A stretch of DNA of 58,673 nt from Alphaproteobacteria bacterium (lineage in GTDB: Bacteria; Pseudomonadota; Alphaproteobacteria; Bin95): positions 1 through 58,673 of the forward strand of contig JAJDVH010000011.1 of NCBI GenBank assembly GCA_022826185.1, in the 5' to 3' direction. This document shows, one piece after another, positions 15,310-31,866 of the stretch. The notes under the pieces were generated by a model. It had not been told where the DNA came from and did not search any database. It saw only the letters and a list, made by a program, of their open reading frames with translations. Positions within the stretch are counted from its first letter, which is position 1. The number at the start of each line of letters is the position of its first letter. Both the position numbers and the translations under genes were made by a program.

Positions 15310-16050
15310 ATGAAGCTTGCCGGCAAGACGGCGATCGTGACAGGAGGAGCCTGGGGCATGGGGGCGGTCACGGCCGAACTCCTTGCATCAGAAGGCGCGG
15401 ACGTTGTCGTCGCGGATATCCTGGAGGAAGAGGGGCAGGCCCAGGCGGAGAAGATTACCGCGGGCGGGGGCAAGGCATCCTTTCATCGTCTGGATGTGAC
15501 CGAAGATGCGGGATGGGCGGAACTGGCTGCCGCTCGGCCCGAGGCCGATATACTCGTCAACAATGCCGGCATCAGCGGCAGCGGCTACGCCGACCCCTTC
15601 GACCTCGACGCCTGGCACAGTCTGATGGCCATCAACGTCACCGGGGCGTTTCTCGGATGCCGCCATTTCGTGCCGAAGATGGCGGCTGCGGGCGGCGGCG
15701 TCATTGTCAATATTTCGTCGATCTCCGGCGTCGTCGGCCAGGACGTCGTCCATCACGGCTACAATGCTTCCAAGGGGGCGATCCGTGTATTGACGAAATC
15801 GGTGGCCGTGCGCCATGCGCCGGAGGGGATCAGGGCGAATTCGGTCCACCCCGGCCTGATGCCGCCGATGCGGACCTCCGGCGCCACCGCCGATCCCGTG
15901 GTGCGCGAGCGGATGCTGCGCCGGGTGCCAATGGGCCGCAACGGCCGCGCGGACGAGGTCGCAAAGGCGGTGCTCTTCCTCGCGTCTGACGACAGCAGCT
16001 ACTGCACTGGCGTGGAACTCTATGTGGACGGCGGTTTCCTCGCATCGTGA
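15310..16050 (+). CDS. SDR-family NAD(P)-dependent oxidoreductase
   Basis: 246 aa. Classical short-chain dehydrogenase: cofactor motif TGGAWGMG near residue 12, NNAG in ILVNNAGISG, catalytic Ser in VNISSISGVVG, Tyr-x3-Lys in YNASKGA, and ELYVDGGF at the end. Asp in VVVADI after beta-2 favours NAD over NADP. Start at 15310 has GGGAG 8 nt upstream. It precedes a TPP-dependent decarboxylase, with a strong hairpin between the two genes. An alcohol/ketone pair upstream or downstream of a 2-oxoacid decarboxylation step would make sense, but no substrate can be read from the sequence. Confidence 0.9.
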   Translation: MKLAGKTAIVTGGAWGMGAVTAELLASEGADVVVADILEEEGQAQAEKITAGGGKASFHRLDVTEDAGWAELAAARPEADILVNNAGISGSGYADPFDLDAWHSLMAINVTGAFLGCRHFVPKMAAAGGGVIVNISSISGVVGQDVVHHGYNASKGAIRVLTKSVAVRHAPEGIRANSVHPGLMPPMRTSGATADPVVRERMLRRVPMGRNGRADEVAKAVLFLASDDSSYCTGVELYVDGGFLAS

Positions 16051-16060
16051 CGTTCACCTG

Positions 16061-16093
16061 CCGGCACGGGAAGGAGCGCCTTTCCCGTGCCGG
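16061..16093 (+). terminator. Strong hairpin between SDR and decarboxylase genes
   Basis: A perfect 12-bp stem CCGGCACGGGAA (16061-16072) pairs with TTCCCGTGCCGG (16082-16093) across a 9-nt loop. It begins 10 nt after the SDR stop. There is only a weak T-rich tail (CATTTCATT), so it may be a terminator or an mRNA-stabilising structure that sets unequal expression of the two genes. Confidence 0.55.
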
Positions 16094-16151
16094 CGCCTCC
16101 ATTTCATTCCCCGACCGACGGTTCCCCGCCGAACGAAGGAAGCGACCAGCA

Positions 16152-17813
16152 ATGCCCTCCCCCTCCAACACGATCAGCGGCCGCAGCGCCTTTCTTGCCG
16201 TACTCAAGGATGAAGGAGTCACGCACCTCTTCGGCAATCCGGGCACAACGGAATTGCCGATCATGCATGCGCTGACCGAGCAGAGCGATCTCGGTTACGT
16301 GCTGGGCCTCCAGGAGTCAGTGGTCGTTGCGATGGCCGACGGCTTCGCACGCGCTTCCGGCAAGCTGGCGGCCTGCAACGTCCATGTCGCGCCGGGGCTG
16401 GGGAATGCCATCGGCGCGCTCTACACCGCGTCGCAGAGCGGCTCACCGATCATCGTGACCGCCGGACAGCAGGAACAGGGCCACGGGCTTACGGAGCCGC
16501 TTCTCTATGCTCCGCTTACCCCGATGGCGGAGCCTGTGGTCAAGTGGGCCGTGGAGGTCACCAGGATCGAGGATCTGCCGCGCATCCTCCGGCGCGCCGC
16601 CAAGGTGGCGACGACTCCTCCCACGGGACCGGTCTTCATTTCCCTGCCCGGAGACATCCTGAACCGCCATGAGGCCATCGATCTCGGACAGGTCACGCGG
16701 GTCGATTCCCGCATCCGCCCCTCCGACGAGGCGCTGGCGGGCATGGCGGACCGAATCGCCGCGGCGGCCAATCCGGTCGTGCTCGCCGGCCACGAGACGG
16801 CCACCGGCGATGCGCTGGATGCCGCAGCCCGGTTCGCCGAACTGCTGGGAGCGCCCGTCTATCAGCAAAGCGTGCCGCAGGGGGCGCATTTCCGTTCCGA
16901 ACACCCCTGCTTCATGGGCGCGCTCAGCCGAAGCCAGCCGCAGGTCCGGCGCCTGCTGGCGCCCCATGATCTGATAGTCAGCCTCGGAGCCGACTTCCTG
17001 CGGATGTCGGTCTGGAGCGAAACCGACCCGCTGCCGGAGCATATGGCCGTCATCCAGATCGGCCTGAGGGACTGGGAACTCGCCAAGAACTACCCGGCCG
17101 AAATAGCTGCGCTGAGCGATGTGCGCGAAACCCTGGCGGTCCTCAATCCGCTGCTGGAGGAAAGGCTGGGCGCCAGTCGGCAAGACCGGATAGCCGCGCT
17201 CGCCGGACATAATTGGACTGCGAACCGCAGCAAGGCGTTGAGGGCCGTGGCGGAGACGGTCGAGGACGCCGATCCGATTCCGCCGGCCTGGCTCTGCATG
17301 TGCCTGGCCGAGGAGTTGCCCGAAGACGGCATTGTTGTGGATGAAGGCATCACCACCGGAGCGCGCCTCCTGGATTTCCTGCCGTTTCGGGACGCAAACG
17401 GCTATTTCGGCAATGTCTCGGGCGGGATCGGCTGGGGCATCGCCGCCGCCGTCGGCGTGCAGATCGCGCAGCCCGCCCGGCGCACCGTCGCGCTTATCGG
17501 CGACGGCAGCGCCATGTATTCGATTCAGGCGCTCTGGACGGCCGCCAACGCGCTGCTGCCGGTTGTCTTCGTCATCGCCAATAACGGCGGTTACCGTATC
17601 CTGAAGGACCGGATGAAGGCCTTTCACGACAATGATGCGCCCATCGGCATGGATTTCCGCAACCCTTCCATCGACGCCGTGCGGCTTGCGGAAGGATTCG
17701 GCATGGCTGCGACCCGCGCGGAAAGCCCGGCCGCCTTCCGAAAGGCTTACAAGGAGGCCCTCGCCGGCTCCGGCCCTGTTCTGATCGAAGCCGTGGTCAG
17801 CGTCGGCGGCTGA
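16152..17813 (+). CDS. Thiamine-diphosphate 2-oxoacid decarboxylase, benzoylformate-decarboxylase-like
   Basis: 553 aa. TPP-enzyme family with all three domains: N-terminal Pyr domain (FGNPGTTELPIMHAL, catalytic Glu in LQESVVVAMADGFARASG), central domain, and C-terminal PP domain (IGDGSAMYSIQALWTAAN to VIANNGGYRI, the GDG-NN motif that holds Mg-TPP). NVHVAPGLGNAIGALYTA carries a His equivalent to the active-site His of benzoylformate decarboxylase, which favours that branch over acetolactate synthase. Start at 16152 has AAGGAAG 9 nt upstream. It converges with the MFS gene (17-bp overlap). Probable substrate is an aryl or branched 2-oxoacid; oxalyl-CoA or sulfopyruvate decarboxylase activity is less likely. 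Confidence 0.85.
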   Translation: MPSPSNTISGRSAFLAVLKDEGVTHLFGNPGTTELPIMHALTEQSDLGYVLGLQESVVVAMADGFARASGKLAACNVHVAPGLGNAIGALYTASQSGSPIIVTAGQQEQGHGLTEPLLYAPLTPMAEPVVKWAVEVTRIEDLPRILRRAAKVATTPPTGPVFISLPGDILNRHEAIDLGQVTRVDSRIRPSDEALAGMADRIAAAANPVVLAGHETATGDALDAAARFAELLGAPVYQQSVPQGAHFRSEHPCFMGALSRSQPQVRRLLAPHDLIVSLGADFLRMSVWSETDPLPEHMAVIQIGLRDWELAKNYPAEIAALSDVRETLAVLNPLLEERLGASRQDRIAALAGHNWTANRSKALRAVAETVEDADPIPPAWLCMCLAEELPEDGIVVDEGITTGARLLDFLPFRDANGYFGNVSGGIGWGIAAAVGVQIAQPARRTVALIGDGSAMYSIQALWTAANALLPVVFVIANNGGYRILKDRMKAFHDNDAPIGMDFRNPSIDAVRLAEGFGMAATRAESPAAFRKAYKEALAGSGPVLIEAVVSVGG

Positions 17814-19839
17814 ACACCCCGACGGCAAGCAGCACGGCCATCAGCGCGGTCGTGGCCAGTATGCCGTAGCCAACCAGTGTGCCCGCGTGAGCCAACCCGG
17901 CAAACGCGACGATGGCGCCGGCGAGCAGGGGGCCGGCAATGCTTCCGGCGCGTTCCACCACGCGAAACGCCGCCGTGACCGTCCCGGTCCCGTGGGCTTC
18001 CGTCTCGACCCTGAAATAGGTCGGCAGGACGGCGACCTGCGGTGTCATCACGAACGACTGCCCAAGCCCGATCAGCGCGACGCCGCACGCCAGCAACAGG
18101 CTGTCCGCCGTGGCAACGAACAGCATGCAACCGACCCCTGCTGAAACGCCGCCAACCAGAATCAGGATACCGTGGTTCTGGAACCTGTCGGCTATTACCG
18201 CCGCCGCTTGATTCATGACCAGCAATACGAGGAAGTAGACCATCATCGTGCGCCCGATTGCGGCCCCGCCGAATCCAAGCGAATCGAGATAGAGCGGCAC
18301 GAGGAAGAACAGGAAGCCGGTAAGCACGATCCGCGACGGCAGCGCCGAGAGCGCCATGAATGTCATGAATTTCGGACTGCCGTAGATGCCCAGCCGCCTG
18401 CGGCGGGAGGCAGATGTCCCGGCGCTGGCTCCCACGCCCTCGTCCGGCGATAGGAAACCGAAAGCGATCGACATCGCGACGAAGACGAGCGCAGCTCCCA
18501 CGAGGAAGGTATTTTCGTAACCGAGGCGTTCGGCGAGGATTCCGCCGATAGCCGTTGCGCAGATGCTGCCGCCTCCCGTGGCAGTGACGAACACGCCGAT
18601 ATTGAGCGCCCGCCGCCGCTCCGGCGCCGTCATGGCGAGCCGGACCAGGATCGCCGCAGTGACAAGGCCGAACCCGGCTGCCGTCAGGCAACGCAACAGA
18701 ATGAGTTCGATAAAGCCGCCTGCAAACGCGGTCGCAATGAGGCCGACGCTGGTCGGCGCCATGCCGAAGAGCAAGGTGTTGCGCGTGCCGAAACGGCGAA
18801 TGAGGCCGGGAGCGAACGGCGTCGTGAAGAGCATTGCGACGACCCACACCGACATCGGCATGGCGATGGCAATGGACGCATCGATCCCGATTGAAGGGTC
18901 GTACAGGTCCCGCACGAAGAGCGGGAAGAAGGGCCGCGAAAGCTCGACGCCGAAAATGAAGAAGAAGAGGGGATATTGGACATCTCCCGCACGCAGCACC
19001 TGCACGGACCGGTAGGAACCATGTTCGGCGAACACCCGGCCTTCCCTCAATGTCTCCAACGCGGCGCTGCCGCCGGACGCCAACGCTCGGAAGCGCCGGT
19101 TGATCTCGGCGTTAATGCCGTTCATCGCGTCGATCACCCGGCCCAGATCGTCGCGTCCGCGCGTTGCGATGGATGCCGAAAAATCTCCCTCGCTAACGGC
19201 ATGCATCAACCGGCGCATCAACCCGATGGAACGGGCGACTGTCAGCGACAGCACCAGCAGGGTGAGTTCGAGCACGATGAGTACGGCGACGCACAACGAA
19301 ATGCCGATATCGGTGAAAATGCCCCCCATCGTGTTGCGGACAAACCGCCGGTCGATGCCGATCATCGCGTATCCGACCTGCTTGCCGTCATGGACCATCG
19401 GATGCGTGACGTTGTAGTCCGTATCGAAGGAAATGAATGCGCCGGCCTGCGCCTCGCTGGCGTTCGCCGCCAGGGGCTGAAACTCATCGTCCTGACTGTC
19501 TTCCGACTCTGCCAGGAACAGGACGTTGCGCTCCGGATCCGTCACCGCGAGATAGGCGACTTCGGGATGATCTGTCAGCAGATCCTCCAGATAGGTGTCC
19601 ACACCCCTCAGGTCGCCGACCGGTATGTCGAGGCTTACGGCCTTGTAGAGGTCGTTGGCGATAGAGCGGGCAAGGACATTCGCCTTGTCCTTGATGACCG
19701 GTTCCAGCCTCGTCTCGACCGCGCCCAACGCGACCCACGCCAGCACTGCGTTCGCGGCGATCAACGCTGCAACAGCCACGAATCCTATGCGGATTCCGAG
19801 CCCGGCAAGAGTCGGCGCACGGCGGCTTCCCCGAATCAT
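17797..19839 (-). CDS. Sensor-HAMP-MFS fusion: membrane transporter with a periplasmic sensor module
   Basis: 680 aa. Residues about 13-40 are a first membrane helix; 41-175 are a periplasmic Cache-like sensor (LDIPVGDLRGVDTYLEDLL, HPEVAYLAVTDPERNVLF, HDGKQVGYAMIGID); 178-202 are a second helix; 203-255 are a HAMP-like linker (RSIGLMRRLMHAVSEGDFSA, DDLGRVIDAMN). From about 286 a complete 12-helix major facilitator transporter follows (FGVELSRPFFPLFVRD, RRFGTRNTLLFGMAP, LGQSFVMTPQVAVLP). Normal MFS carriers have no sensor or HAMP, so this looks like a transporter gated by a periplasmic ligand. It is the last gene of the operon ATP-grasp A / sensor-only / MFS, joined by 4-bp ATGA overlaps. Cargo unknown; export of the ATP-grasp product is my inference. 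Confidence 0.85.
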   Translation of the reverse strand: MIRGSRRAPTLAGLGIRIGFVAVAALIAANAVLAWVALGAVETRLEPVIKDKANVLARSIANDLYKAVSLDIPVGDLRGVDTYLEDLLTDHPEVAYLAVTDPERNVLFLAESEDSQDDEFQPLAANASEAQAGAFISFDTDYNVTHPMVHDGKQVGYAMIGIDRRFVRNTMGGIFTDIGISLCVAVLIVLELTLLVLSLTVARSIGLMRRLMHAVSEGDFSASIATRGRDDLGRVIDAMNGINAEINRRFRALASGGSAALETLREGRVFAEHGSYRSVQVLRAGDVQYPLFFFIFGVELSRPFFPLFVRDLYDPSIGIDASIAIAMPMSVWVVAMLFTTPFAPGLIRRFGTRNTLLFGMAPTSVGLIATAFAGGFIELILLRCLTAAGFGLVTAAILVRLAMTAPERRRALNIGVFVTATGGGSICATAIGGILAERLGYENTFLVGAALVFVAMSIAFGFLSPDEGVGASAGTSASRRRRLGIYGSPKFMTFMALSALPSRIVLTGFLFFLVPLYLDSLGFGGAAIGRTMMVYFLVLLVMNQAAAVIADRFQNHGILILVGGVSAGVGCMLFVATADSLLLACGVALIGLGQSFVMTPQVAVLPTYFRVETEAHGTGTVTAAFRVVERAGSIAGPLLAGAIVAFAGLAHAGTLVGYGILATTALMAVLLAVGVFSRRR

Positions 19840-20588
19840 CGCCTGCTCGCTTCCGCAGCCGCCAGCTTCGCTGCGGTTTCCCGCACGGAAACGCTGTAGC
19901 CCACAAACTCTGCAAGGTCGGTATCGACCGGCGTTTCCTCCTGATCCGAATTCAACAGGTTTTCAACGCTTTGCCGCAGATAGCGCGCCGTCGTCGTCAG
20001 CTTCCACAATGCCGCGGCGGTTCCCAGCACCGCAAGCAGGCCGCTGGCGAGAAAGATGACCGCAGCCGCCTCCAGGAGCTCCTTCGTCAATCCCCCCACA
20101 ATGCTGGCGTAGCGCGCCTTGCTGTAACGAACCGCCACCCCGCCTTCGAGTTTCCCGAAATTGTTGATGACCGGCGCGCCGACGACAAACGACTCCGGGT
20201 CTTCGATACGCCAGACTTCCCCTTCGGCCTCCCGGTTGCCGTCGGTCCAGTCTGCCGGGGCCTCGGCTTTTCCGCCGTTCAAGGCATTGCCGCCATGCAC
20301 AAGCAACTTGCCGCGGGCATCGAAAATGCTGGCGGACTGGAGTTCCGGATAATCGTCGATCAGCGCGTCCACAATCGACCGGCTTTCCGCAATGTCCTTG
20401 AGCGGCAGCCCGAGGTCCACGGCCTGCCGCAAGCGACGGGAGGTATCGAGTGTCACGACCGATACCCGGGAATCGTCCAGCCCCCGCAGGATGTCACCGA
20501 ATTTCTGCTGGTTGAGCAGGATCATCAGCGCCATGGTCACTGCAAACGCACACAGGAAGGCCAGATTCAATATGACCAGCAGCCTCAT
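19836..20588 (-). CDS. Sensor-only membrane protein (Cache-like) paired with the MFS fusion
   Basis: 250 aa. N-terminal helix (RLLVILNLAFLCAFAVTMAL), periplasmic sensor of about 130 residues with DLGLPLKDIAESRSIVDALI, DDYPELQSASIFDARGKLLV and VGAPVINNFGKLEGGVAVRY, then a second helix (AAVIFLASGLLAVLGTAAAL) and a cytoplasmic tail of about 55 residues that resembles a HAMP helix pair but ends without any output domain. The INNFGK-GGV motif is shared with the sensor-only protein at 26619-27356. Start at 20588 (ATGA overlap with the ATP-grasp stop); stop overlaps the MFS start. It probably pairs with the sensor of the MFS fusion. No enzymatic residues seen. Confidence 0.75.
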   Translation of the reverse strand: MRLLVILNLAFLCAFAVTMALMILLNQQKFGDILRGLDDSRVSVVTLDTSRRLRQAVDLGLPLKDIAESRSIVDALIDDYPELQSASIFDARGKLLVHGGNALNGGKAEAPADWTDGNREAEGEVWRIEDPESFVVGAPVINNFGKLEGGVAVRYSKARYASIVGGLTKELLEAAAVIFLASGLLAVLGTAAALWKLTTTARYLRQSVENLLNSDQEETPVDTDLAEFVGYSVSVRETAAKLAAAEASRR

Positions 20589-21595
20589 GCGGCAGACACT
20601 CCCTGACGCTCCAGACTGTAGCAAAGGAAATGTTCGATCATGGCTTCGTGCGACACACCCGCGGCGTTAGCGCCTATATTCATTGACATGGTCGTCGCCA
20701 GATTGCAGGTCACATTGAATTCGAGCAAGCGAAATGACCCGTCCGGGGCAACACGAAAATCGACACGCAGATAATCGCAGGGCTGCACCAGCCTTGTGAA
20801 CGCAAGCGCCGCCTCCTGCAATTCCTTGCACAGCGCCTTGTCCTGGAAGGGTTCGCCACGCTTTCCGGGGTCCAGGTAGCGTTTCTGACGCTCTGTCTGG
20901 ATTCCTTCCCGCAGCTCGGAGTGGTTGGCGACGGGATGCATCGCCAAAGGTCCGCCAAGCACAGGCACCGTCACGTCCAGACCCGGCGCGAGCGCCTCGA
21001 TCAACGGCTCCTCGCCCGCAGCGAGGAATGTCGAGGCCCGGGCCCGAGCCTCTTGCCAGTCGCCGCAAATGGAGCCTTCGTCGACCCCTTCGGAGTTGGC
21101 CCCGAAACGGGGTTTGACGAAATAGGGCCCTTCGAAGGCCGGCGGATCGTCGAGGTCGGCCTCGCTGACGGCCACTGTCCCCTCCGGAACCGGCAGCCCT
21201 GCGCCGCGCGCCATCAGCTTCGTAATCCACTTGTCCTCAGCCATCGCGCGGATATTCGGCGGGCTGCCGAGATAAGGAATGCCGGAGCGCGCGCACAAGC
21301 ACGAGACCAGAATTTCGGGATTGCGCACAGCCTCGCGGTTGTAGATCTGAAAGATGTAATCCGGCGCCGGGCCGCAGTTCATGCGCTCCTCGAACGCTTC
21401 GAGGCTGCCGCAGGGCTCAACCGACCGGGCCAGGCTGCGAAGGACCGAGAGCACTTCGAATTTGGTATAGAGTTCGCGTCCGTAGCGCGGATGGACCATG
21501 GGCGGCGGTTCGCTCCAGTCCTGCGCGTATTTCGCCAGATAGAGGATATCCAGTTTCCTGCGCTGCTCCTGACCGATCTGCAAAAGCTTAAACAT
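20585..21595 (-). CDS. ATP-grasp ligase A (D-Ala-D-Ala-ligase-like)
   Basis: 336 aa. ATP-grasp fold: preATP-grasp region from LDILYLAKYAQDW; nucleotide lysine K161 in GPYFVKPRFGANSEGV; metal residues D279 (YLRVDFRV), E292 and N294 (LLEFNVTCNL). The order and spacing match D-Ala-D-Ala ligase, but the usual N-T-x-P-G loop is replaced by NVTCN, so the acceptor site differs. It therefore probably ligates other amino acids or carboxylates with ATP. It shares GxPxNIRAMAEDKW, QKRYLDPG and SHEAMIEHFL with ATP-grasp B at 22700-23728. First gene of a three-gene operon. The start at 21595 has a weak Shine-Dalgarno (CAAGA). It is divergent from the binding-protein gene. Confidence 0.8.
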   Translation of the reverse strand: MFKLLQIGQEQRRKLDILYLAKYAQDWSEPPPMVHPRYGRELYTKFEVLSVLRSLARSVEPCGSLEAFEERMNCGPAPDYIFQIYNREAVRNPEILVSCLCARSGIPYLGSPPNIRAMAEDKWITKLMARGAGLPVPEGTVAVSEADLDDPPAFEGPYFVKPRFGANSEGVDEGSICGDWQEARARASTFLAAGEEPLIEALAPGLDVTVPVLGGPLAMHPVANHSELREGIQTERQKRYLDPGKRGEPFQDKALCKELQEAALAFTRLVQPCDYLRVDFRVAPDGSFRLLEFNVTCNLATTMSMNIGANAAGVSHEAMIEHFLCYSLERQGVSAA

Positions 21596-21640
21596 TCTTG
21601 AAATTACCAGATGCCTGTCGCAAACGCGGCGAACCGGCTT

Positions 21641-21669
21641 ATGATAGCCAGCCAGCCATCTTCAAGCAA
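21641..21669 (-). promoter_or_regulatory. Candidate sigma-70-like promoter for the ATP-grasp A operon
   Basis: On the minus strand TTGCTT (21669-21664) and TATCAT (21646-21641) are separated by exactly 17 bp. The expected transcript would start near 21634, leaving a leader of about 40 nt before the ATG at 21595. The 94-bp gap between the two divergent starts probably carries both promoters and any operator. Confidence 0.35.
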
Positions 21670-21689
21670 CGCAACGGTCGCTGATTCCG

Positions 21690-22703
21690 ATGTTCCGAGC
21701 GCTAATTCTGGCCCTCGCCGCCTGGACGGCGAGCGCCGCGGCCTCACAGGCCGACCCCTTCACCATCTACATGATCGTGCATCGCGCCGGATCGGGCGCC
21801 GATGAGGGTTTCCGAGACTACCTGAAGGCGAACGGCGTCGATGCCAGCTTCGTCTTCCGCGACATGGAGAACGACCGGTCCCGCCTGCCCGGCTATGTCG
21901 AGGAGATCAAGGCGCTGAAGCCCGATCTCGTCTATACGCAGACAACCTCGGTGACGCGCGCGGTCGTCGGTCGGCTGGAAGAGGCCGACCCGGCGAAGCA
22001 TATCCTCGACATTCCCGTCGTGTTTTCGATGGTTTCGTTTCCGGTCAGGTCGAAACTGGCGCCCGAGAATCCCGACCCTGCAGGCCCGATGCTCTCGAAA
22101 CGCAACCTGACCGGCGCCAGGCATGTGGTCTCGAATCTCGTGCGTCTCAACGCCATGCGCACCTACATGCCTTTCAAGAAGCTGGGCATGCTTTACGACA
22201 AGAGTTCGGGCGCGCAGCGCCGGTCCGAGGTGTCCATGCGCGCCCTGGCCGAAGAGGCCGGCCTCGAATTCGTTTCGGATAGCCCCACGGAACCCAAGGT
22301 CGAGCGGGACCCTGCCCAGATCGAGCCGACGCTCCGGCGCCTCAAGGCTGAAGGGGTCGACTTTCTGTATATCCCGCCATCCAATTTCTTCGGCGCCCAT
22401 GCCGAACTGGTGACCCGGACCGCAACCGAACTCGGCCTGCCGACCTTTTGCGGCGTCGAGACCCTGATCCGTTACCACTGCATGACCGGGCTGGTCAGCC
22501 CGCTGTACGCCGTCGGACAGTTCGCCGCCTTCAAGGCGGAGCAGATTTTGACGGGCGGCAGGGACCCCGGAGAGATCCCGATAGAAACGCTCTCCCGGTT
22601 CTCCTTCGTGGTCAATATGGAGACAGCTCACAAGCTGAAGGTGTATCCGCCGATGGAAATTTTGCGTTTCGCCCAGTTCATCAAGACCGGAGCCGAGTCT
22701 TGA
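21690..22703 (+). CDS. ABC-type periplasmic substrate-binding protein, TrpX-like, without permease
   Basis: 337 aa. Signal peptide MFRALILALAAWTASAAASQA. Belongs to the ABC_sub_bind (TrpX-like) group: IYMIVHRAGSGADEGFRDYL, IKALKPDLVYTQTTSVTRAV, IPVVFSMVSFPV, FKKLGMLYDKSSGAQ, EGVDFLYIPPSNFFGAHAEL, TRTATELGLPTFCGVE. Relatives bind tryptophan, tyrosine or other small ligands. The usual neighbours, a permease and an ATPase, are missing; instead the stop overlaps an ATP-grasp gene as TTGA. It may present a ligand to the four membrane sensors nearby, as periplasmic proteins do for some histidine kinases. That role is inference. No good Shine-Dalgarno precedes the ATG. Confidence 0.82.
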   Translation: MFRALILALAAWTASAAASQADPFTIYMIVHRAGSGADEGFRDYLKANGVDASFVFRDMENDRSRLPGYVEEIKALKPDLVYTQTTSVTRAVVGRLEEADPAKHILDIPVVFSMVSFPVRSKLAPENPDPAGPMLSKRNLTGARHVVSNLVRLNAMRTYMPFKKLGMLYDKSSGAQRRSEVSMRALAEEAGLEFVSDSPTEPKVERDPAQIEPTLRRLKAEGVDFLYIPPSNFFGAHAELVTRTATELGLPTFCGVETLIRYHCMTGLVSPLYAVGQFAAFKAEQILTGGRDPGEIPIETLSRFSFVVNMETAHKLKVYPPMEILRFAQFIKTGAES

Positions 22704-23728
22704 TCGCCCTGAAACGTTTGGACGACAGACGCCGCGCTACTCTGAGAATTCTGTATCTCGCGCCCCACGCGCCCTCACCCGACACGCCGAAGCCTCCGGC
22801 GATTCATCCCGATTACGGGGTCCAGCCCGCTTATCAGTACGAGATATGCGACGTGCTGACCAACGGGCTCGGTCTGGACGTTGTGAGCAGTTCCGACCTG
22901 AACGCCGTGCCGCAGGCGTTCGAAGGCCGGAATTATGTCTTTTCCCTCTACAACATCGCGCCGTTTCCCAACTCCGAGGTCTATGTTGCCGCATTGGCGG
23001 CCAGAGCGGGCATAGCCTGCATGGGCGCGCCGGCAAACATACGCGCGCTCGCCGAGGACAAATGGCTGAGCAAGCTGGCGGCGCAGGCGCTGGGCATCCC
23101 GACGCCCGCCGGAAAAGTCTATGGCCCGGGCGCTCCGGTTCACGAACCGGGTTTCGATGGTCCCTATGTGGCGAAGCCGCGCTTCGGCGCTGCATCGACA
23201 GGCATAGATGCCGAGAGCGCACAGGCGGACTTCGGCGCGCTCGCGGCGCGCATTGCGCAACTCCGGGCGACTACGGACGAATGCCTCGTCGAACAGGTCT
23301 TCGGCGAGTTCGATGTGACGGTGCCGATCCTGGTCGGCGAAGACGGACCTGTGGCCCTGCCGCCCGCCACCCAGACATGCGACAGCCCCTACGGGCTCTT
23401 TACTCACCGCCAGAAACGAAAGCTCGAACCGGGCCTCACGCGGGAGTTCCCGGGCGACGAACCTTGGCTGGAGCCCATCATCGAAGATGCGCTTCGGTTC
23501 GCGCGGGCGGTTGAGCCTTACGACTATCTGCGCTGCGACTTCCGGTTCGGCCCTGCGGGCCACGCCTTTCTCGAATTCAACCTCGCCTGTTCCATAGGCA
23601 GCGCGATGGCCTTCGCCCAATGTGCCGCGCGTGTCGGAGTCTCTTCGGAAGCTCTGGTGGAGCACATTCTGGTCACCAGCCTCGACCGGCAGTGGGGTCA
23701 GGGGGCGTCCGCACCGTCGCCGAGGTAG
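22700..23728 (+). CDS. ATP-grasp ligase B (D-Ala-D-Ala-ligase-like)
   Basis: 342 aa if started at the TTG at 22700, which forms a TTGA overlap with the stop of the binding protein and has CGGAG upstream; homology starts soon after (LRILYLAPHAP). ATP-binding lysine in GPYVAKPRFGAASTGID; metal residues D280 (YLRCDFRF), E292 and N294 (FLEFNLACSIG). As in ligase A, a cysteine (NLACS) stands where D-Ala ligases have the NTxPG loop. Similarity to ligase A runs the whole length (MGAPANIRALAEDKWLSKL, QKRKLEPG, SSEALVEHIL). It probably performs a second, related ligation. The last 31 bp overlap the convergent phosphatase gene. Confidence 0.8.
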   Translation: MIALKRLDDRRRATLRILYLAPHAPSPDTPKPPAIHPDYGVQPAYQYEICDVLTNGLGLDVVSSSDLNAVPQAFEGRNYVFSLYNIAPFPNSEVYVAALAARAGIACMGAPANIRALAEDKWLSKLAAQALGIPTPAGKVYGPGAPVHEPGFDGPYVAKPRFGAASTGIDAESAQADFGALAARIAQLRATTDECLVEQVFGEFDVTVPILVGEDGPVALPPATQTCDSPYGLFTHRQKRKLEPGLTREFPGDEPWLEPIIEDALRFARAVEPYDYLRCDFRFGPAGHAFLEFNLACSIGSAMAFAQCAARVGVSSEALVEHILVTSLDRQWGQGASAPSPR

Positions 23729-26622
23729 CGCAATGCGACGGTCGTTATATCGTCGCTCTGCTCGACGCCGGTAGAGAACGCCTCGACCGACGCCCGCATC
23801 GCGTCGCAAATGGCGGCAGGCGGCGCTCCGGCAGTGGCTTCCAGTTCGGCTTCCAGACGCGGCTCGCCGAATTGCTCGCCCGCTTCGTTGAAGGCTTCGT
23901 TGACGCCGTCGGTATAGAAGAACAGTGTTTCGCCGGGCGCCAGGAGGGTTTCGCCTTCCTGGAAACTGAAGCCCGGCATGATCGCAAGCGCCAGGCCGGC
24001 ATCCATCGGCAAGGTTGATATCTGCCCTCCGGCGTCGATCCGGTAGGTCGGGTTATGTCCGGCATTGGCGAATGTCACATGGCCGGTCTCGGCATCGACA
24101 ACCGCGTAGAAGGCAGTGACGAACATCATTTGTTCGTTCTCCGCCTCCAGCATGTCGTTCAATGCCGTCAGCACCCTGGACGGAGATTCGCCGATCAGCG
24201 CCGTGGCCTTTAGCAGGGTGCGTGCGATCAGCATGAAGAACGCGGCCGGTATTCCCTTGCCCGAAACATCCGCAATGACGATCCCGATACGGCGCTCGTC
24301 GATCGCGAAATAATCGTAGAAGTCGCCGCCCACTTCCTTGGCCGGCACCATCTGGGCCGCGATCTCAACAGTGCGTTGAGGCGGCGTTTCGCGCGGCAGG
24401 ACGGAGAGCTGCAGATCATGGGCAATGGACAGCTCGCGTTCGATCGCGACAAGGCGCTCCTTGTGCTTGAGGGCCTCGCGAAGTTCCTCGACCAGTTCGG
24501 TCAGGCGGCCGTGCTGTTCGCGGATGCGCTGGGCCATTTGCTCGAACACCAGCGTGAGGGCTTCGAACTCGTCGCTCGCTCCCTCCTGTTCGAGCTGGGC
24601 GAGCTGGTCGGTGACCGCCTGCCGGGCTTCCGCGCCGACCGCCGAAGTGAGGCCGGTCATCTGCTGGCGCAGGAATCGTTCGCGCCGCCTTTGCGCCCTG
24701 CGGCGCTCCGCGGACAGGCGCTCAACCTCGCCCAACGACGTGCGGTAAGCCTCAACCGCCCTGGCGATGCGGGCGATCTCGTCCTTGCCGGCCTCCTGTT
24801 CGAGCCAGACTCCGCGCCGACCGTCGGACAGTGCTTCCAGCACGCCGATCACCCGATCGAGCGGTTGCAGCGAGCCGCGCAGGTTCGCGTAAAGGACCCA
24901 TAGTGCGATGCAGGCGAAAATCGCCACCGCTCCGAAGAAGGCGATACGCAAGGCCTCCTGCCGTGCCGAAAGCTCGCTGACGTCGGTTATGACATGAAGC
25001 GCCGCAAGCCGCCCGCCATTCAGGGCCGGGATATTCGCGGTCGTCCTGGCATAGTCGCCGCTATCGCCATCGAGCCCCTGCCAAAGCGGCGGATCGGTGC
25101 CGAAGATCAGCCCGCCTTCGCTCCCCACCAGGAACGCCTCTCCGCCGAGAACCGCCCCTGCCTCCAGCACCGCCGAGGCAAGGGGGACGCTCGCAGCGAC
25201 GATCAGCACATCGCCTTGTTCCGGGTCTCCCAAGGCTTCCGCAACTGTCCAGACAGGCTTGCCGTCAGCATCGAGGTCGCCGCCGCTTACCCGGCTGCCC
25301 GTGTCCATGATCCGCTTGGCGACACGCGGCGACAAGGGGTTCCGCCCCACGAACAGGCGTCCCCCTCCCTCTTCGGACGGATCGAAGGTCACGAGTTGTT
25401 TGAGACCGCTGCTCGTGGCGATATCTTCGATCAGCCGCGCTGCAAGCAACGCGTCTCCCGCAAGGAGCGCAGACCGGATACCCTCATTGACGCGAAGCGA
25501 AGCCAGTTGGCGCGCGACCAAATCCGTCTCGCGTTGCGACAGGGTTTTCCAGACGGTCCTCAGCGCAGTCTGGCGGTCTTCGTCATAACTCTCGGCCAAC
25601 AGGCGCTCGCGAACGATGCTGCCGTAGCCCAGGCCGATGGCCAGCAACAGCCCCCCGAGGCTTATGATGGCCGTCAGCCGCAGGCGTATCGAGATATTCC
25701 TTCCGAACCGGCCTACCGCGGTGGGGGGCGTCGGAGGAATGTCGCGGAATGTCGGTTCCAGCCGCTGAACCAGTCCCCGCCGAACGCGTTCGAGCGAATC
25801 CCGCACTGTCCGCCCGACCGCGGCATCGCGTGCGTCTTCCGCCTGATCCAGAATCGAATCGTACCGCGCCCGCAGACCGTGCAGCACCGAGTTGAATGCA
25901 CGGGCTGCAAAGCCGATTTCGTCCCGCTGCCCCAAATCCCCGAGCAGCACCGGGCGCCCGCCGGCCGCTTGCGCGATGCCGCTGTCGAGCCGTTGCAGGC
26001 GGCGGCCGACGCGCAACCCCAGGAATAGCGCGCACAGCAACCCGGCGATGACGCCGACGGCGCCCGCTATGGCGAAGCTCGGCCAGTTCCGGCGCAGAAT
26101 ATGCGTCACGAAGTCCTTTTCGACGGCGACATGCAGAAGAGCCAGCGGGTAGTCAGCCGGACCGATCGGGCGGATGTCGACGGAAAGCTCGCCGAAGATG
26201 TGACGGTTGCGGGCTTCCGTCATTCCCCCCGCCATCCGCCGCTCCTCGAAAACGGTATCGGCCGCTTCCAGAACCTCTTCGAGCCGCTCACGCGCAATGC
26301 CGCTGAAATAGACCGGTCTCTTGTCCGGCGACGTCATAGCGATAAAACGGATATCCGGATTGTCGTCGAGAAAGCGCTGGAAGAAGGGCTCGACCCCCCG
26401 AAGCTCCGCAAGCGGGATGCCGACCCGAGCGGCGCGTTCCATCTCGGTCTTCATCGCCTGCCCGACCGCCAGCGCCTTGCGGTCAAGTTCGTCGGTCAGC
26501 GGCTCTTCGGCCCACCAGTGGAAAGCAGCAGCCGTCAAGACCGCCTGCAGGAGTGCGACTATGACGGCGGCTGCGCAGGCTTTCAGCCAAATTGTTCGCG
26601 AGAGTCCGCCCATGCCCATCAT
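23698..26622 (-). CDS. Double-sensor membrane SpoIIE/PP2C-type phosphatase
   Basis: 974 aa. First unit: helix 12-34, periplasmic sensor 35-178 (VGIPLAELRGVEPFFQRFL, DNPDIRFIAMTSPDKRPVYF), helix about 182-203, HAMP 204-255. Second unit: helix about 312-336, second periplasmic domain 337-555, helix about 557-579, HAMP 580-635. Then a coiled coil (640-745) and a SpoIIE-type PP2C domain (750-970) with every metal motif: GGDFYDY at 765, IADVSGKG, ANAGHNP, YTDGVNEAFNEAG, QSDDITTVAL. It should dephosphorylate a Ser/Thr-phosphorylated protein, commonly a STAS-domain regulator, in response to two periplasmic signals. No STAS or anti-sigma partner is in the window. ATGA overlap with the upstream sensor-only gene fixes the start at 26622. 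Confidence 0.87.
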   Translation of the reverse strand: MMGMGGLSRTIWLKACAAAVIVALLQAVLTAAAFHWWAEEPLTDELDRKALAVGQAMKTEMERAARVGIPLAELRGVEPFFQRFLDDNPDIRFIAMTSPDKRPVYFSGIARERLEEVLEAADTVFEERRMAGGMTEARNRHIFGELSVDIRPIGPADYPLALLHVAVEKDFVTHILRRNWPSFAIAGAVGVIAGLLCALFLGLRVGRRLQRLDSGIAQAAGGRPVLLGDLGQRDEIGFAARAFNSVLHGLRARYDSILDQAEDARDAAVGRTVRDSLERVRRGLVQRLEPTFRDIPPTPPTAVGRFGRNISIRLRLTAIISLGGLLLAIGLGYGSIVRERLLAESYDEDRQTALRTVWKTLSQRETDLVARQLASLRVNEGIRSALLAGDALLAARLIEDIATSSGLKQLVTFDPSEEGGGRLFVGRNPLSPRVAKRIMDTGSRVSGGDLDADGKPVWTVAEALGDPEQGDVLIVAASVPLASAVLEAGAVLGGEAFLVGSEGGLIFGTDPPLWQGLDGDSGDYARTTANIPALNGGRLAALHVITDVSELSARQEALRIAFFGAVAIFACIALWVLYANLRGSLQPLDRVIGVLEALSDGRRGVWLEQEAGKDEIARIARAVEAYRTSLGEVERLSAERRRAQRRRERFLRQQMTGLTSAVGAEARQAVTDQLAQLEQEGASDEFEALTLVFEQMAQRIREQHGRLTELVEELREALKHKERLVAIERELSIAHDLQLSVLPRETPPQRTVEIAAQMVPAKEVGGDFYDYFAIDERRIGIVIADVSGKGIPAAFFMLIARTLLKATALIGESPSRVLTALNDMLEAENEQMMFVTAFYAVVDAETGHVTFANAGHNPTYRIDAGGQISTLPMDAGLALAIMPGFSFQEGETLLAPGETLFFYTDGVNEAFNEAGEQFGEPRLEAELEATAGAPPAAICDAMRASVEAFSTGVEQSDDITTVALRYLGDGADAP

Positions 26623-27356
26623 CCGATCCGGTCCAGCCGGTCGATTTCGCGCGCGTCGGTATCCATCGTGGCGAGCATTCCGGTTGCGGCCTCGTGGAAA
26701 CGGGCAAGCGATTCCGGGGCTCCCTTGAGGTCCGCCGCCTGACCTTCGGCCATCGCCAGCAGAGAGGTGTCGCTTTGCCTCAGCATGTCCAGAACGGGGC
26801 GCAACACCCATCGGGCAAACACGGAAACGAGCAGGAGGCAAATCGCGAATACGACAGCGGCGATACCGAGAACCGTGATCGTCGCGCGCTCCAGCAACGG
26901 GGCGCTGTGCCGGACTTCGCTCTCCAGCAGGACGCCGCCGACGACCTTCCCGAAATTATTGATAAGGGGGCTGCCCACGGTCACGGCCCTCTCATCGGCT
27001 TCGATCCAGCGTCCGGTCCGGTCGCTGATTTCCACCGTCGTGCCGAGGTCCGTCTGGTCGGTGGAGAACACGACCCGGCCATTGGCTCCGAAGACCAGCA
27101 GGCGGTCGATATCGGGGTCGGCGGCCTGGGTCCGGTCGAGTATGGCGGCAATCTCCGGAATGGTTTCCAGCCGGAGACCCAGATCCGTCCGGACGGTAAT
27201 TGTGTGGGCGATCTCATCGACGGTGAAGCCGAAATGAGATGTCTTGACCGTCCTGAGTTCGCGGTCGAACGTGTCCAGCGCGGCATAAACGACGAACGCG
27301 AGCGACAGGGCGACGCCAACAAGAAGCGCCAGTCCCAACTTGATCCGCAGTCTCAT
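26619..27356 (-). CDS. Sensor-only membrane protein (Cache-like) paired with the phosphatase
   Basis: 245 aa. N-terminal helix (IKLGLALLVGVALSLAFVVY), periplasmic sensor with RTDLGLRLETIPEIAAIL, DRLLVFGANGRVVFSTDQ and VGSPLINNFGKVVGGVLLES, a second helix (TITVLGIAAVVFAICLLLVS) and a HAMP-like tail (RWVLRPVLDMLRQSDTSLLA) of about 65 residues, with no output domain. The INNFGK-GGV segment is nearly the same as in 19836-20588. Its stop overlaps the phosphatase start as ATGA, so the two are made together and probably form a mixed receptor. First gene of its operon; 84 bp separate it from the AMP-ligase gene behind it. Confidence 0.75.
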   Translation of the reverse strand: MRLRIKLGLALLVGVALSLAFVVYAALDTFDRELRTVKTSHFGFTVDEIAHTITVRTDLGLRLETIPEIAAILDRTQAADPDIDRLLVFGANGRVVFSTDQTDLGTTVEISDRTGRWIEADERAVTVGSPLINNFGKVVGGVLLESEVRHSAPLLERATITVLGIAAVVFAICLLLVSVFARWVLRPVLDMLRQSDTSLLAMAEGQAADLKGAPESLARFHEAATGMLATMDTDAREIDRLDRIG

Positions 27357-27440: not shown

Positions 27441-29018
27441 CTATAAGTCCCTGTCCGGTTCCGCATCCCAACACTCGCCAATCCCGCGCTCCCGCAATTC
27501 GTGGCGCGCAATCTCGTTCTTGGTCATCGTCCGCGGAAACTCATCCACGAACTCGATATAGCGCGGCGCCTTGAAATAGGCGATTCGTTCGCGGCACCAG
27601 TGGACGAGCGCTTGCGGGTCCACCGAGGCGGAAACCTGCACATAGGCCTTGATGTCCTCTTCTCCGAGATCGGAGGGCACGCCTACACAGGCGCAGTCGA
27701 CGACGGCGTCGTGGGCGGTGATCGCCTTCTCGACCTCGAAGGCCGAAACATTCTCGCCGCGCCGGCGGATCCAGTGGGCCTCGCGGCCGACAAAGTGGAC
27801 ATAGCCGTCCTCGTCGAGCCAGCCGAGGTCGCCCGAGTGGTACCAGAGATTGCGCCAGGCGGAGAGGGTTGCCTCCGGCTTGTTGATGTATTCGATCATG
27901 TAGGTGTTCGGTACTTTGGGCCGCAGCAGGAGCTGCCCGGTCGTGCCCGCCGGCACCGGGTTGTCGTCCGCATCGACGACCAGAAGCTCCGTCCATCCGT
28001 GCGGCCGGCCGCATGTGCCGATCTTGCGGTCGTGCAGCCGTTCGGAGCAGATCAGCACGCCCATCTCCGTCATCGCATACACCTCGAGCATGGGAATTCC
28101 GAACCGGGCCTCGAACTCGTCCCGCAGCTCGCGCCGGACCTGGCCCGAGGCGATGCCCACCCCGACCTTGACCCGGTGCGAGCGGTCGAGCCCGCTCTCC
28201 GGGCGGCGCAGCAGCACCGACATCATTGTCCCCAGCGGGTCGATGATGGTGGCCCCGTGGCGATGCACCGTCTCCCAGTAGCGCGAGGCGCTGAACCATT
28301 TGTGCATCACGCCCGTCATGCCCGTGTAGAGCGGCCCGGTGACGCCGAATTGCTGGCCGCCGATATGGAAGAAGTGCGAGTTGGCGAAATGCACGTCGTC
28401 CGGCCGCGCTTCGGCGATCTCCGCATAACGAATGGCCGCCGCGATGTAATAGAGGTGGGAGACGAGTACGCCTTTCGGCATGGAGGTGCTGCCGCCGGTA
28501 TAGACGATCGCAACAGGATCCGTCGGTCCGACCTGGGCCTCCGGCAACGCCTCGGAACCTGTCAGCAGCTCGTCCCAGGCGGCGTAGCCAGCGCATGGCG
28601 CGCCGTGGACCATCACTTCCGGAGGCGAGGCGAAACGGTCCGCCGCCGCTTCGCAGACATCCATCAGTTCGTCGTCGGCGACCAGCAGTTTCGCGCCGGT
28701 ATCGTTCAGGCTGTAGGCGAGGTCGTCACGGGCCAGCGACACGTTCAGCGCCGCATAGACGGCGCCGATCTTGGCGCAGGCGAACCAGATGATCTCCTGC
28801 GCCAGCGAGTTGTACATGAAGGTCGCGACGACATCGCCCTTGGCCAGGCCGCGCTCCAGGAGCGCGTTGGCGACGCGGTTCGAGAGCCGGTCGGCATCCG
28901 CATAGGTCAGTGTCTCGTCCCGGCAAATTAGCAACGGCTTGTCGCCCAGCGAAGCCCGCATCGTCACCAGGTCGCGCAGGGTGGTCGCATGCGGCGTTTC
29001 GCCCATGATGCGGATCAT
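27441..29018 (-). CDS. AMP-dependent acyl-CoA ligase (CaiC-like)
   Basis: 525 aa. ANL superfamily. VYTGGSTSMPKGVLVSH is the phosphate-binding loop, EVYAMTEMGVLI the A5 region, and HSGDLGWLDEDGYVHFVGR the A7/A8 region with WIRRRGENVSAFEVE. At the C-terminus FPRTMTKNEIARHELRERG replaces the usual TGK(I/V)-K motif; related CaiC-like ligases carry a similar variant (TERVAKHEL), so activity is not excluded. GGAGGCGAGAG precedes the ATG at 29018, which overlaps the CoA-transferase stop as ATGA. It is the last gene of the 32952-27441 operon and would supply a CoA thioester for the transferase or hydratase. Confidence 0.87.
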   Translation of the reverse strand: MIRIMGETPHATTLRDLVTMRASLGDKPLLICRDETLTYADADRLSNRVANALLERGLAKGDVVATFMYNSLAQEIIWFACAKIGAVYAALNVSLARDDLAYSLNDTGAKLLVADDELMDVCEAAADRFASPPEVMVHGAPCAGYAAWDELLTGSEALPEAQVGPTDPVAIVYTGGSTSMPKGVLVSHLYYIAAAIRYAEIAEARPDDVHFANSHFFHIGGQQFGVTGPLYTGMTGVMHKWFSASRYWETVHRHGATIIDPLGTMMSVLLRRPESGLDRSHRVKVGVGIASGQVRRELRDEFEARFGIPMLEVYAMTEMGVLICSERLHDRKIGTCGRPHGWTELLVVDADDNPVPAGTTGQLLLRPKVPNTYMIEYINKPEATLSAWRNLWYHSGDLGWLDEDGYVHFVGREAHWIRRRGENVSAFEVEKAITAHDAVVDCACVGVPSDLGEEDIKAYVQVSASVDPQALVHWCRERIAYFKAPRYIEFVDEFPRTMTKNEIARHELRERGIGECWDAEPDRDL

Positions 29019-30718
29019 CTCTCGCCTCCTCGGTCGAGCATGGGTGCAGGTTTGCGGAAGGGCGCCCGGTGTCCGTTCACGCGCCAGGGAGAAGCGACCA
29101 GAAGCTCCTTGCCGGTCACCGGGTGCTGCGCCTCGATCCAGCCGGAGCAGTCCGCGAAGACAGGCGAGGCATCGCTTTCATCCAGTTCCACGACAGCGGC
29201 GGTCATCGGCAGGGCCGGGCCAGCCGCGGGCGTTGCGGCGAGCGCGGCCGCCGCTTCGATCTGCGAGAGGTCGAGCGCCCGCCCCTGCCCGTCCCGGTCG
29301 CGGGCCACGAGCGCAGCGAGGGCCGCCAATGCCGCGAAACAGGCGGCGTTCGGGTCGCTGATCGAGAAGGTGGGCGAGCCTATGAACGCGCCCGCATCGT
29401 CCCGGATGAGTATTTCGGCGCCGGCGAGCGCACTCAGCACCAGCCCGTAGGAGCGCAGGCGCTCGACTGCCGAACCGTTGCCCGGTCCGCTCATCGACAG
29501 GCTCACCAGCCCCGGATTCGCGCGCGCCAGCACTTCGCGGCCAAGGCCCATGCGGTCCATCGTCCCAACGGTGAAATTCTCGATCAGCAGGTCGGCCCGG
29601 CTCACCAGCTCAAGCAGCCGCGTCCTGCCTTCGTCCGACTTGAGGTTGAGCGACAGCCCGGTCTTGTTTCGGTTCAGGCTGTGGAAGTAGAAAGAGCTCT
29701 CGAGCCGGACATGCTCGTCCATCTGGCCCCGCAGATGTTCCAGGCCCCGTGTGCGGTAGAGGTCGAACCGGCCGGGAGACTCGACCTTGATTACCTCCGC
29801 GCCGAGGTCCGCGAGAAGCTGGCCGACCATAGGCCCCGACCAGATCCAGCAGAGCTCGACGCAGACCAGCCCCTCCAGCGGTCCCGCGCGCCCGCCTCGT
29901 TTCCGGTGGTCCGCAGCGCTTCCGCGACCCGTAGGCTCAGCCAGAAACGGCATCGCCGGTTCCTCGAAGCCGGGCCGGAACACGCCTCGCTCCAGCGCCT
30001 CGCCATAGCTGTAGACGGGGGCGATCACCGCGCCTTCCTCCAGGCCGCGTGCGAGCAGGTCGTCGCGCGCCTTGTCCGCCAGCGTTTCCTCCAGCAGCGC
30101 ATCCGCCTCGGCGCTGTCCCTTGCCAGCGCGAACGGGTTGTCGAAGCCGGGTCTGCGCGCCCATTCCGGGTCGCCGAGCGCCGTCGCGATTCGCCGCCAG
30201 TCCCGCCGCGAACGCCCGAGCAGTGCGACATGGCCGTCCCGGCAAGCGAAAAAACCCATCGGGAAGATGAGGCCGTGCTCGACGCAGATCCGCCCGTTGC
30301 GCTTCCACAGCCGGCGGCGTTCCTCCGGCGTGCCGGAGTTCTGGAGCGCAAAGGCGCGCATGATGTCCGCTGCGGACGCATCGTATTCCGGCGCGCCGCC
30401 GTCCGTTCCGCGCCAGGCTTCGGCGAGCGCCAGCATCGCCCCGACGAGCCCGCACCATTTCTCCGGCATGTCCGCCGGCAGCGGCAGGCCCGGACCACCG
30501 CCATGCCCGATGACAGCGGCAGGCCCGGCGACCGCAGAGGCGTCCGCGCCGCTGCCTTCCATGCCGACCTGGAAATCCCAGAGACGGATCGGCGGACCTC
30601 CCGGCGCCGCTGCGGCTCCGGCCAGTTCAAGCCACATGTACGCATAGGCGGGCGCGCGGCCCTTCCCCTCGAACGAGGCCGGGACAGTCCCTACCGGCAG
30701 CCGGCGCATCGCCTTCAT
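29015..30718 (-). CDS. CaiB/BaiF family III CoA-transferase with rearranged lobes
   Basis: 567 aa. The second half (from about 285) has the normal CaiB N-lobe: LEGLVCVELCWIWSGPMVGQ, LLADLGAEVIKVESPGRFD, NRNKTGLSLNLKSDEGRTRL, ADLLIENFTVGTMDRMGLG and GQGRALDLSQIEAA, ending with the usual PWRVNGHRAPFRKPAPML tail but lacking the small C-lobe. The first half (about 85-270) instead looks like the end of an N-lobe plus a C-lobe: DASAADIMRAFALQ, MGFFACRDGHVALLGRSRR, DWRRIATALGDPEW, GAVIAPVYSYGEALERGVFR. The chain thus appears to hold one CaiB fold in permuted order, or a tandem protein that lost its outer parts. Members move CoA between carboxylates. ATGA overlaps at both ends tie it to the ligase and the MaoC-like gene. 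Confidence 0.8.
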   Translation of the reverse strand: MKAMRRLPVGTVPASFEGKGRAPAYAYMWLELAGAAAAPGGPPIRLWDFQVGMEGSGADASAVAGPAAVIGHGGGPGLPLPADMPEKWCGLVGAMLALAEAWRGTDGGAPEYDASAADIMRAFALQNSGTPEERRRLWKRNGRICVEHGLIFPMGFFACRDGHVALLGRSRRDWRRIATALGDPEWARRPGFDNPFALARDSAEADALLEETLADKARDDLLARGLEEGAVIAPVYSYGEALERGVFRPGFEEPAMPFLAEPTGRGSAADHRKRGGRAGPLEGLVCVELCWIWSGPMVGQLLADLGAEVIKVESPGRFDLYRTRGLEHLRGQMDEHVRLESSFYFHSLNRNKTGLSLNLKSDEGRTRLLELVSRADLLIENFTVGTMDRMGLGREVLARANPGLVSLSMSGPGNGSAVERLRSYGLVLSALAGAEILIRDDAGAFIGSPTFSISDPNAACFAALAALAALVARDRDGQGRALDLSQIEAAAALAATPAAGPALPMTAAVVELDESDASPVFADCSGWIEAQHPVTGKELLVASPWRVNGHRAPFRKPAPMLDRGGER

Positions 30719-31860: not shown

Positions 31861-31866
31861 CGCGTC

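Follow-up and report, generated by a model that had tools for sequence, protein, structure and literature searches.

What would two ATP-grasp ligase genes be doing among membrane sensors, a transporter-like protein, a phosphatase and a periplasmic binding protein, and do these genes belong together at all? The question is raised by positions 17797–27356 of the window, i.e., positions 1–58,673 of contig JAJDVH010000011.1 (GCA_022826185.1) of an Alphaproteobacteria bacterium of the Bin95 lineage. An earlier note on this DNA had read the region as seven genes in three transcription units, most joined by 4-bp overlaps and with no described counterpart, and had proposed a search for the ATP-grasp pair alongside the sensor-HAMP-MFS protein in other genomes. 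The seven genes do belong together as a conserved unit, the nature of which we consider here.

Conservation of the seven-gene locus

All seven reading frames are open, and their grouping into agA-sensB-mfs (−), sbp-agB (+) and sensA-spoIIE (−), with four 4-bp overlaps, agrees with the layout first proposed. The features are as follows.

17797..19839, minus strand: mfs, predicted Cache-sensor–HAMP–MFS protein, 680 aa (Pfam)
19836–19839: mfs/sensB overlap, 4 bp
19836..20588, minus strand: sensB, membrane sensor lacking an output domain, 250 aa (AlphaFold model, Foldseek)
20585–20588: sensB/agA overlap, 4 bp
20585..21595, minus strand: agA, predicted Ddl-fold ATP-grasp ligase, 336 aa (Pfam, structure model)
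21596..21689, no strand: agA-sbp divergent intergenic region, 94 bp, presumed promoter region (sequence; alignable in genus mates)
21690..22703, plus strand: sbp, PF04392 (TrpX-like) periplasmic binding protein (Pfam; signal peptide by eye)
22700–22703: sbp/agB overlap, 4 bp, TTGA
22700..23728, plus strand: agB, second ATP-grasp ligase, 342 aa, TTG start (Pfam)
23698..26622, minus strand: spoIIE, SpoIIE/RsbU-type phosphatase with two membrane sensor-HAMP modules, 974 aa (Pfam)
26619–26622: spoIIE/sensA overlap, 4 bp
26619..27356, minus strand: sensA, membrane sensor lacking an output domain, 245 aa (sensB paralogue)

Start codons were corrected for sensB (ATG, 20588), agB (TTG, 22700) and spoIIE (ATG at 26622, not TTG at 26841), and the convergent genes agB and spoIIE share 31 bp. 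No consensus promoter is reported in the 94-bp agA-sbp region, and a promoter and terminator scan gave nothing notable above chance. PADLOC had no match to anti-phage genes at E ≤ 0.01, on which basis a role in anti-phage defense was rejected.

The full set of seven genes, in unchanged order, is present in four genus mates (G001, G004, G005, and G006) at 76–92% protein identity—conservation that excludes a chance reading of the frames—and in two more (G007 and G002) whatever part of the locus the contig contains matches as well. In G004, sensA and the CoA-ligase gene next to it in the window lie 3.4 kb apart, which marks the unit boundary on that side. Beyond it, 27441–32952 (minus strand) holds AMP-ligase-like, CoA-transferase-like, dehydratase-like and luciferase-like monooxygenase genes (names assigned by eye), which are kept in genus mates. 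On the other flank, a thiamine-diphosphate-type enzyme (16047–17813) overlaps mfs convergently by 17 bp and is adjacent in three genus mates at 88% identity; it was judged not to be a member of the unit, given only 27% identity to the enzyme of this type neighboring the locus in a more distant alphaproteobacterial MAG (L045).

Outside the genus, five of the seven genes (sbp-agB and agA-sensB-mfs) recur at 67–81% identity in a gammaproteobacterial MAG (L042). The ligase pair is absent from 74 genomes picked as relatives of this MAG, so horizontal transfer is the simplest reading of its presence there and a likely one. L045 carries sbp (44%), agB (42%) and agA (45%) together with a sensor-sensor-MFS fusion. 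As the agA proteins of these three lineages (window genus, L042 and L045) form one clade (support 98), the split between agA and agB probably predates them. No ligases of this kind were found among plasmid records. The search proposed by the earlier note thus returns the ATP-grasp pair with the sensor-HAMP-MFS protein in other genomes, and both the synteny in genus mates and the five-gene recurrence in L042 uphold its treatment of the seven genes as one unit.

A core cassette of sensor, sensor-HAMP-MFS protein and binding protein

The mfs product matches HAMP (1.1e-5) and MFS_1 (1.3e-30; positions 6–347 of 347 of PF07690, i.e., full profile length, at residues 291–636), in keeping with the sensor-HAMP-MFS fusion first perceived in the reading frames. 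Neither sensA nor sensB has a confident Pfam match; they are 28–30% identical to each other (tblastn of genus mates). The AlphaFold model of sensB (mean pLDDT 79.6) has a TM-Cache-TM organization (helix, Cache-like sheet, helix), and its Foldseek matches comprise the sensor domains of WalK, sporulation kinase D, CitA and DcuS, and chemoreceptor Cache domains. Their description as sensor-only membrane proteins therefore stands, with sensB predicted to be a membrane-anchored Cache fold, and a counterpart of sensB is fused to MFS in three loci (L045, L095, and L096). The sensor is accordingly predicted to be a Cache-type periplasmic domain, a fold that would favor small carboxylate or amino-acid-like ligands.

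One reading of these domains is a nutrient-uptake transceptor, in which sbp catches a carboxylate or amino acid for import by the MFS protein and the ligases conjugate the compound as it enters. The proximity of the Cache folds to CitA, DcuS and amino-acid chemoreceptors is consistent with this, as are the matches of the MFS domain to carboxylate and sugar symporter models. However, those matches lie far below curated cut-offs and no catabolic genes are conserved beside the cassette; we consider an uptake role quite unlikely.

Of 385 genomes sampled from the window's class, 30 yielded the sensor-HAMP-MFS protein in a profile search; a narrower profile recovered it in eight genomes of a phylum sample, some of them shared with the class set. 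Neighborhoods were fetched and then scanned with family profiles, leaving out two genomes (G080 and G361) whose contigs stop at or inside the MFS gene. All 28 testable class genomes carry a PF04392-type binding protein within ~3.5 kb of the sensor-HAMP-MFS gene. This pairing is not chance, because the 20 genomes carrying sensor-HAMP-MFS in which PF04392 matches were counted have only 0–2 each: the two proteins travel together across Proteobacteria. A separate sensor gene is present in 19 of the 28 loci, and two sensors are fused to MFS in the four loci of the AG2 ligase type (described below). A SpoIIE phosphatase lies nearby in 15 of 28, an RsbW-like HATPase_c_2 protein in 8 and a STAS protein in 7 (examples of these calls were checked with Pfam).

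The binding protein of the window fits this pattern. It matches ABC_sub_bind (PF04392) at E 8.9e-17 and the TrpX model (NF041285) at E 1.6e-19, and is the sole PF04392 match at E ≤ 1e-5 in its genome. Neither a permease nor an ATPase partner occurs among the seven genes or in the conserved set of the genus mates, so that the earlier picture of a TrpX-like protein lacking both is confirmed.

Type VI secretion genes (VgrG, PAAR, TssA, Hcp, FHA, and ClpV) lie next to the cassette in four genomes (G694, G529, G476, and G619) and on a plasmid of Vibrio (L131); the loci joining the cassette to a type VI operon, in Vibrio and other genomes, are L131 (13069–23030), L092, L093, L095, and L096. Plasmids of Azospirillum brasilense carry the core cassette as well. 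Most copies are without ATP-grasp genes, from which it follows that the ligases are an add-on to the cassette rather than its center, and that its basic function does not need them. The claim of no described counterpart therefore survives for the exact seven-gene set, but not for the core (sensor, sensor-HAMP-MFS, PF04392 protein and often SpoIIE), which is widespread.

In the window's phosphatase, the SpoIIE domain (PF07228, 1.6e-51) retains the metal-binding motifs GGDFYD, DVSGKG, TDGV and DD of a PP2C-type phosphatase domain, and two HAMP stretches accompany it, as its description as a double-sensor SpoIIE phosphatase had it. Residues about 18–283 match the sensor-HAMP part of mfs, with the MFS-fusion profile matching at 25774–26571. 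Related loci are arranged differently: in L042, the opposed unit consists of a sensor, a sensor-HAMP-MFS protein and a HAMP-SpoIIE protein, with an adjacent HATPase_c_2 protein, and in L091 and L098 the second-unit position holds a sensor, then a sensor with a degenerate MFS (no Pfam match), then SpoIIE. Given these arrangements and the mfs-like first part of spoIIE, the simplest inference is that the double-sensor phosphatase arose from a second sensor-HAMP-MFS protein that lost its MFS domain and became fused to SpoIIE. Since the second-copy MFS is degenerate in L091 and L098 and gone in the window, it may be a signaling element rather than a transporter. RsbW-like and STAS proteins adjoin the phosphatase in several homologous loci; there are none within the window's locus, and in its genome such proteins are unlinked to it.

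Two ligase types joined to the cassette

Both ligases are D-Ala-D-Ala-ligase-like ATP-grasp proteins, as first noted, on the strength of Pfam and fold matches: agA matches Dala_Dala_lig_C at E 7.9e-8 and agB, ~40% identical to agA, at E 6.2e-5, just under the cut-off. The agA model (pLDDT 93.8) has a complete Ddl fold, with a TM score of 0.78 to Pseudomonas aeruginosa DdlB at 22% identity. Alignment with the genome's Ddl, together with the fold match, places the ATP-grasp core, the Mg-binding Asp/Glu/Asn and the ATP lysines in the ligases (K122, K161, R277, D279, E292, and N294 are kept). Both are thus predicted to be Ddl-fold ligases with intact nucleotide and Mg residues.

Are they then ordinary D-Ala-D-Ala ligases that happen to sit beside unrelated genes? 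Ddl is the best match of both in Pfam and NCBIfam, yet they score 59 and 38 bits against curated Ddl families with cut-offs of 243–246. Unlike Ddl, they and their relatives lack the N-terminal GGxSxERE and C-terminal NTxPGxT motifs, both of which the genome's separate canonical Ddl possesses (GGVSVERE and NTQPGLT), and they have their own genomic context. In the tree, the agA/agB type (AG1) groups apart from Ddl, and a second type (AG2) groups apart from both. Ordinary Ddl identity, against which the earlier note had set its reading, was therefore rejected and, with the conserved synteny and recurrence already refuting a chance neighborhood, we regard this explanation as vanishingly improbable.

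The AG2 type joins the same cassette in another form. An AG2 ATP-grasp gene, a double-sensor MFS gene, a PF04392-type gene and a histidine kinase gene (kinase domains checked) form an operon-like set in seven genomes of five genera and four families (G008, G010, G105, G160, G661, G442, and G083; loci L157, L159, L161, L162, L169, L170, and L171). A fusion of ATP-grasp and MFS suspected from frame lengths in G083 and G442 proved to be separate genes. With the AG2 set in five genera and the AG1 pair here, at least two distinct ligase forms are tied to one cassette.

AG1 relatives outside the cassette lie mostly in vanadium-nitrogenase clusters. Single AG1 genes occur in vnfDGK neighborhoods (L046, L047, L050, L051, L054, L055, L057, L058, L060, L062, and L064–L069; vnf gene names confirmed for L064 only), which also hold DUF364/DUF4213 heavy-metal-chelation, SBP_bac_6, CobW-like GTPase, ABC ATPase and PhnE-like permease genes and likely represent an unexplored metal-handling or metallophore module. 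In two uncultured Akkermansia MAGs (L053 and L061), an AG1 ATP-grasp gene lies near carA-like and uvrB genes, far from any cassette.

These relatives bring metal handling into consideration for the cassette itself: the ligases would make a chelating amide, sbp and the MFS protein would move the metal complex, and the sensors would report metal status. The closest relatives of agA and agB outside the module do sit with DUF364/DUF4213, CobW-like GTPase and binding-protein genes in the vanadium-nitrogenase clusters. Against this, the window's locus contains no metal gene, the module-linked ligases occupy their own side of the tree (81/83), and the ligands of characterized Cache and TrpX-type relatives are organic. 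A metallophore function is, in our estimation, very unlikely.

Synthase-like enzymes, an exporter-like protein, a periplasmic receptor, sensors and an output in one unit could also be read as a self-contained, autoinducer-like circuit, in which agA and agB make an amide or dipeptide signal, the MFS protein exports it, and sbp and the Cache domains detect it and drive the phosphatase. That two distinct ATP-grasp types have joined the same cassette accords with such a circuit, as does the position of the cassette at the head of type VI operons, a density-relevant trait. However, the type VI copies and most others have no ligase and must sense something else, and no quorum-type regulator lies near the locus; we think this reading unlikely.

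A proposed mechanism and its relation to known systems

We give about even chances to the locus being a conserved cassette for signal transduction and transport to which ATP-grasp genes have been added, i.e., a switch that senses and transports a periplasmic ligand and has a dedicated small-molecule ligase. In such a switch, sbp would capture a small ligand, probably carboxylate or amino-acid-like, and would present it to the Cache sensors of sensA, sensB, mfs and spoIIE. The HAMP segments would relay the sensor state so as to gate the MFS domain and switch the phosphatase; the latter would act on an unlinked STAS/RsbW partner switch for which candidate proteins exist in the genome. The ligases agA and agB would couple cytoplasmic carboxylates or amino acids, thereby making or consuming the compound moved by the MFS protein.

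More tentatively, the cassette could represent an undescribed signaling class—a possibility we would not favor but do entertain. In such a class, an MFS protein would be under the direct control of a permease-less binding protein and Cache-HAMP modules, outputs (SpoIIE, histidine kinase, or type VI operons) would be interchangeable, and ATP-grasps, recruited in at least two forms to make the signal or the cargo, would complete a synthesis-export-sensing circuit. We place the locus with sensor/partner-switch signaling, with a transceptor-like MFS protein, and see a real chance that it merits a separate class. The open-licence literature yielded no account of either the cassette or its ATP-grasp forms, and a survey of Cache domains lists serine phosphatases as one of their outputs but has no mention of MFS proteins (PMC4822843). 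The cassette, apparently undescribed though widespread, offers a function for orphan PF04392 binding proteins, connects MFS proteins directly with Cache/HAMP sensing and heads type VI secretion operons in Vibrio; its ATP-grasp versions point to an unexplored small-molecule ligase family with relatives in vanadium-nitrogenase clusters.

Each part of the locus resembles a known system without matching it. The sbp product shares a fold family with the TrpXYZ binding protein (NF041285) but falls far below that model's cut-off (70 bits vs. 390) and has no permease or ATPase nearby. As in UhpC-type transceptors, the MFS protein is likely used for signaling; unlike them, mfs has its own Cache and HAMP domains and a periplasmic binding protein alongside. 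The phosphatase shares a membrane sensor-HAMP-SpoIIE organization with SiaABCD and RsbU-RsbW-RsbV switches (the SiaA model matches its C-terminal part at 2.7e-24), and loci of its relatives place RsbW-like and STAS proteins beside it as those switches do; the window's version differs in its extra sensor module, its unlinked partners and its coupling to a sensor-MFS protein and a binding protein. Finally, a permease-less periplasmic binding protein adjoins a membrane sensor in LuxP-LuxQ-type pairs as it does here, whereas in the cassette that protein is of the PF04392 type and an MFS protein serves as output alongside a SpoIIE phosphatase or a histidine kinase.
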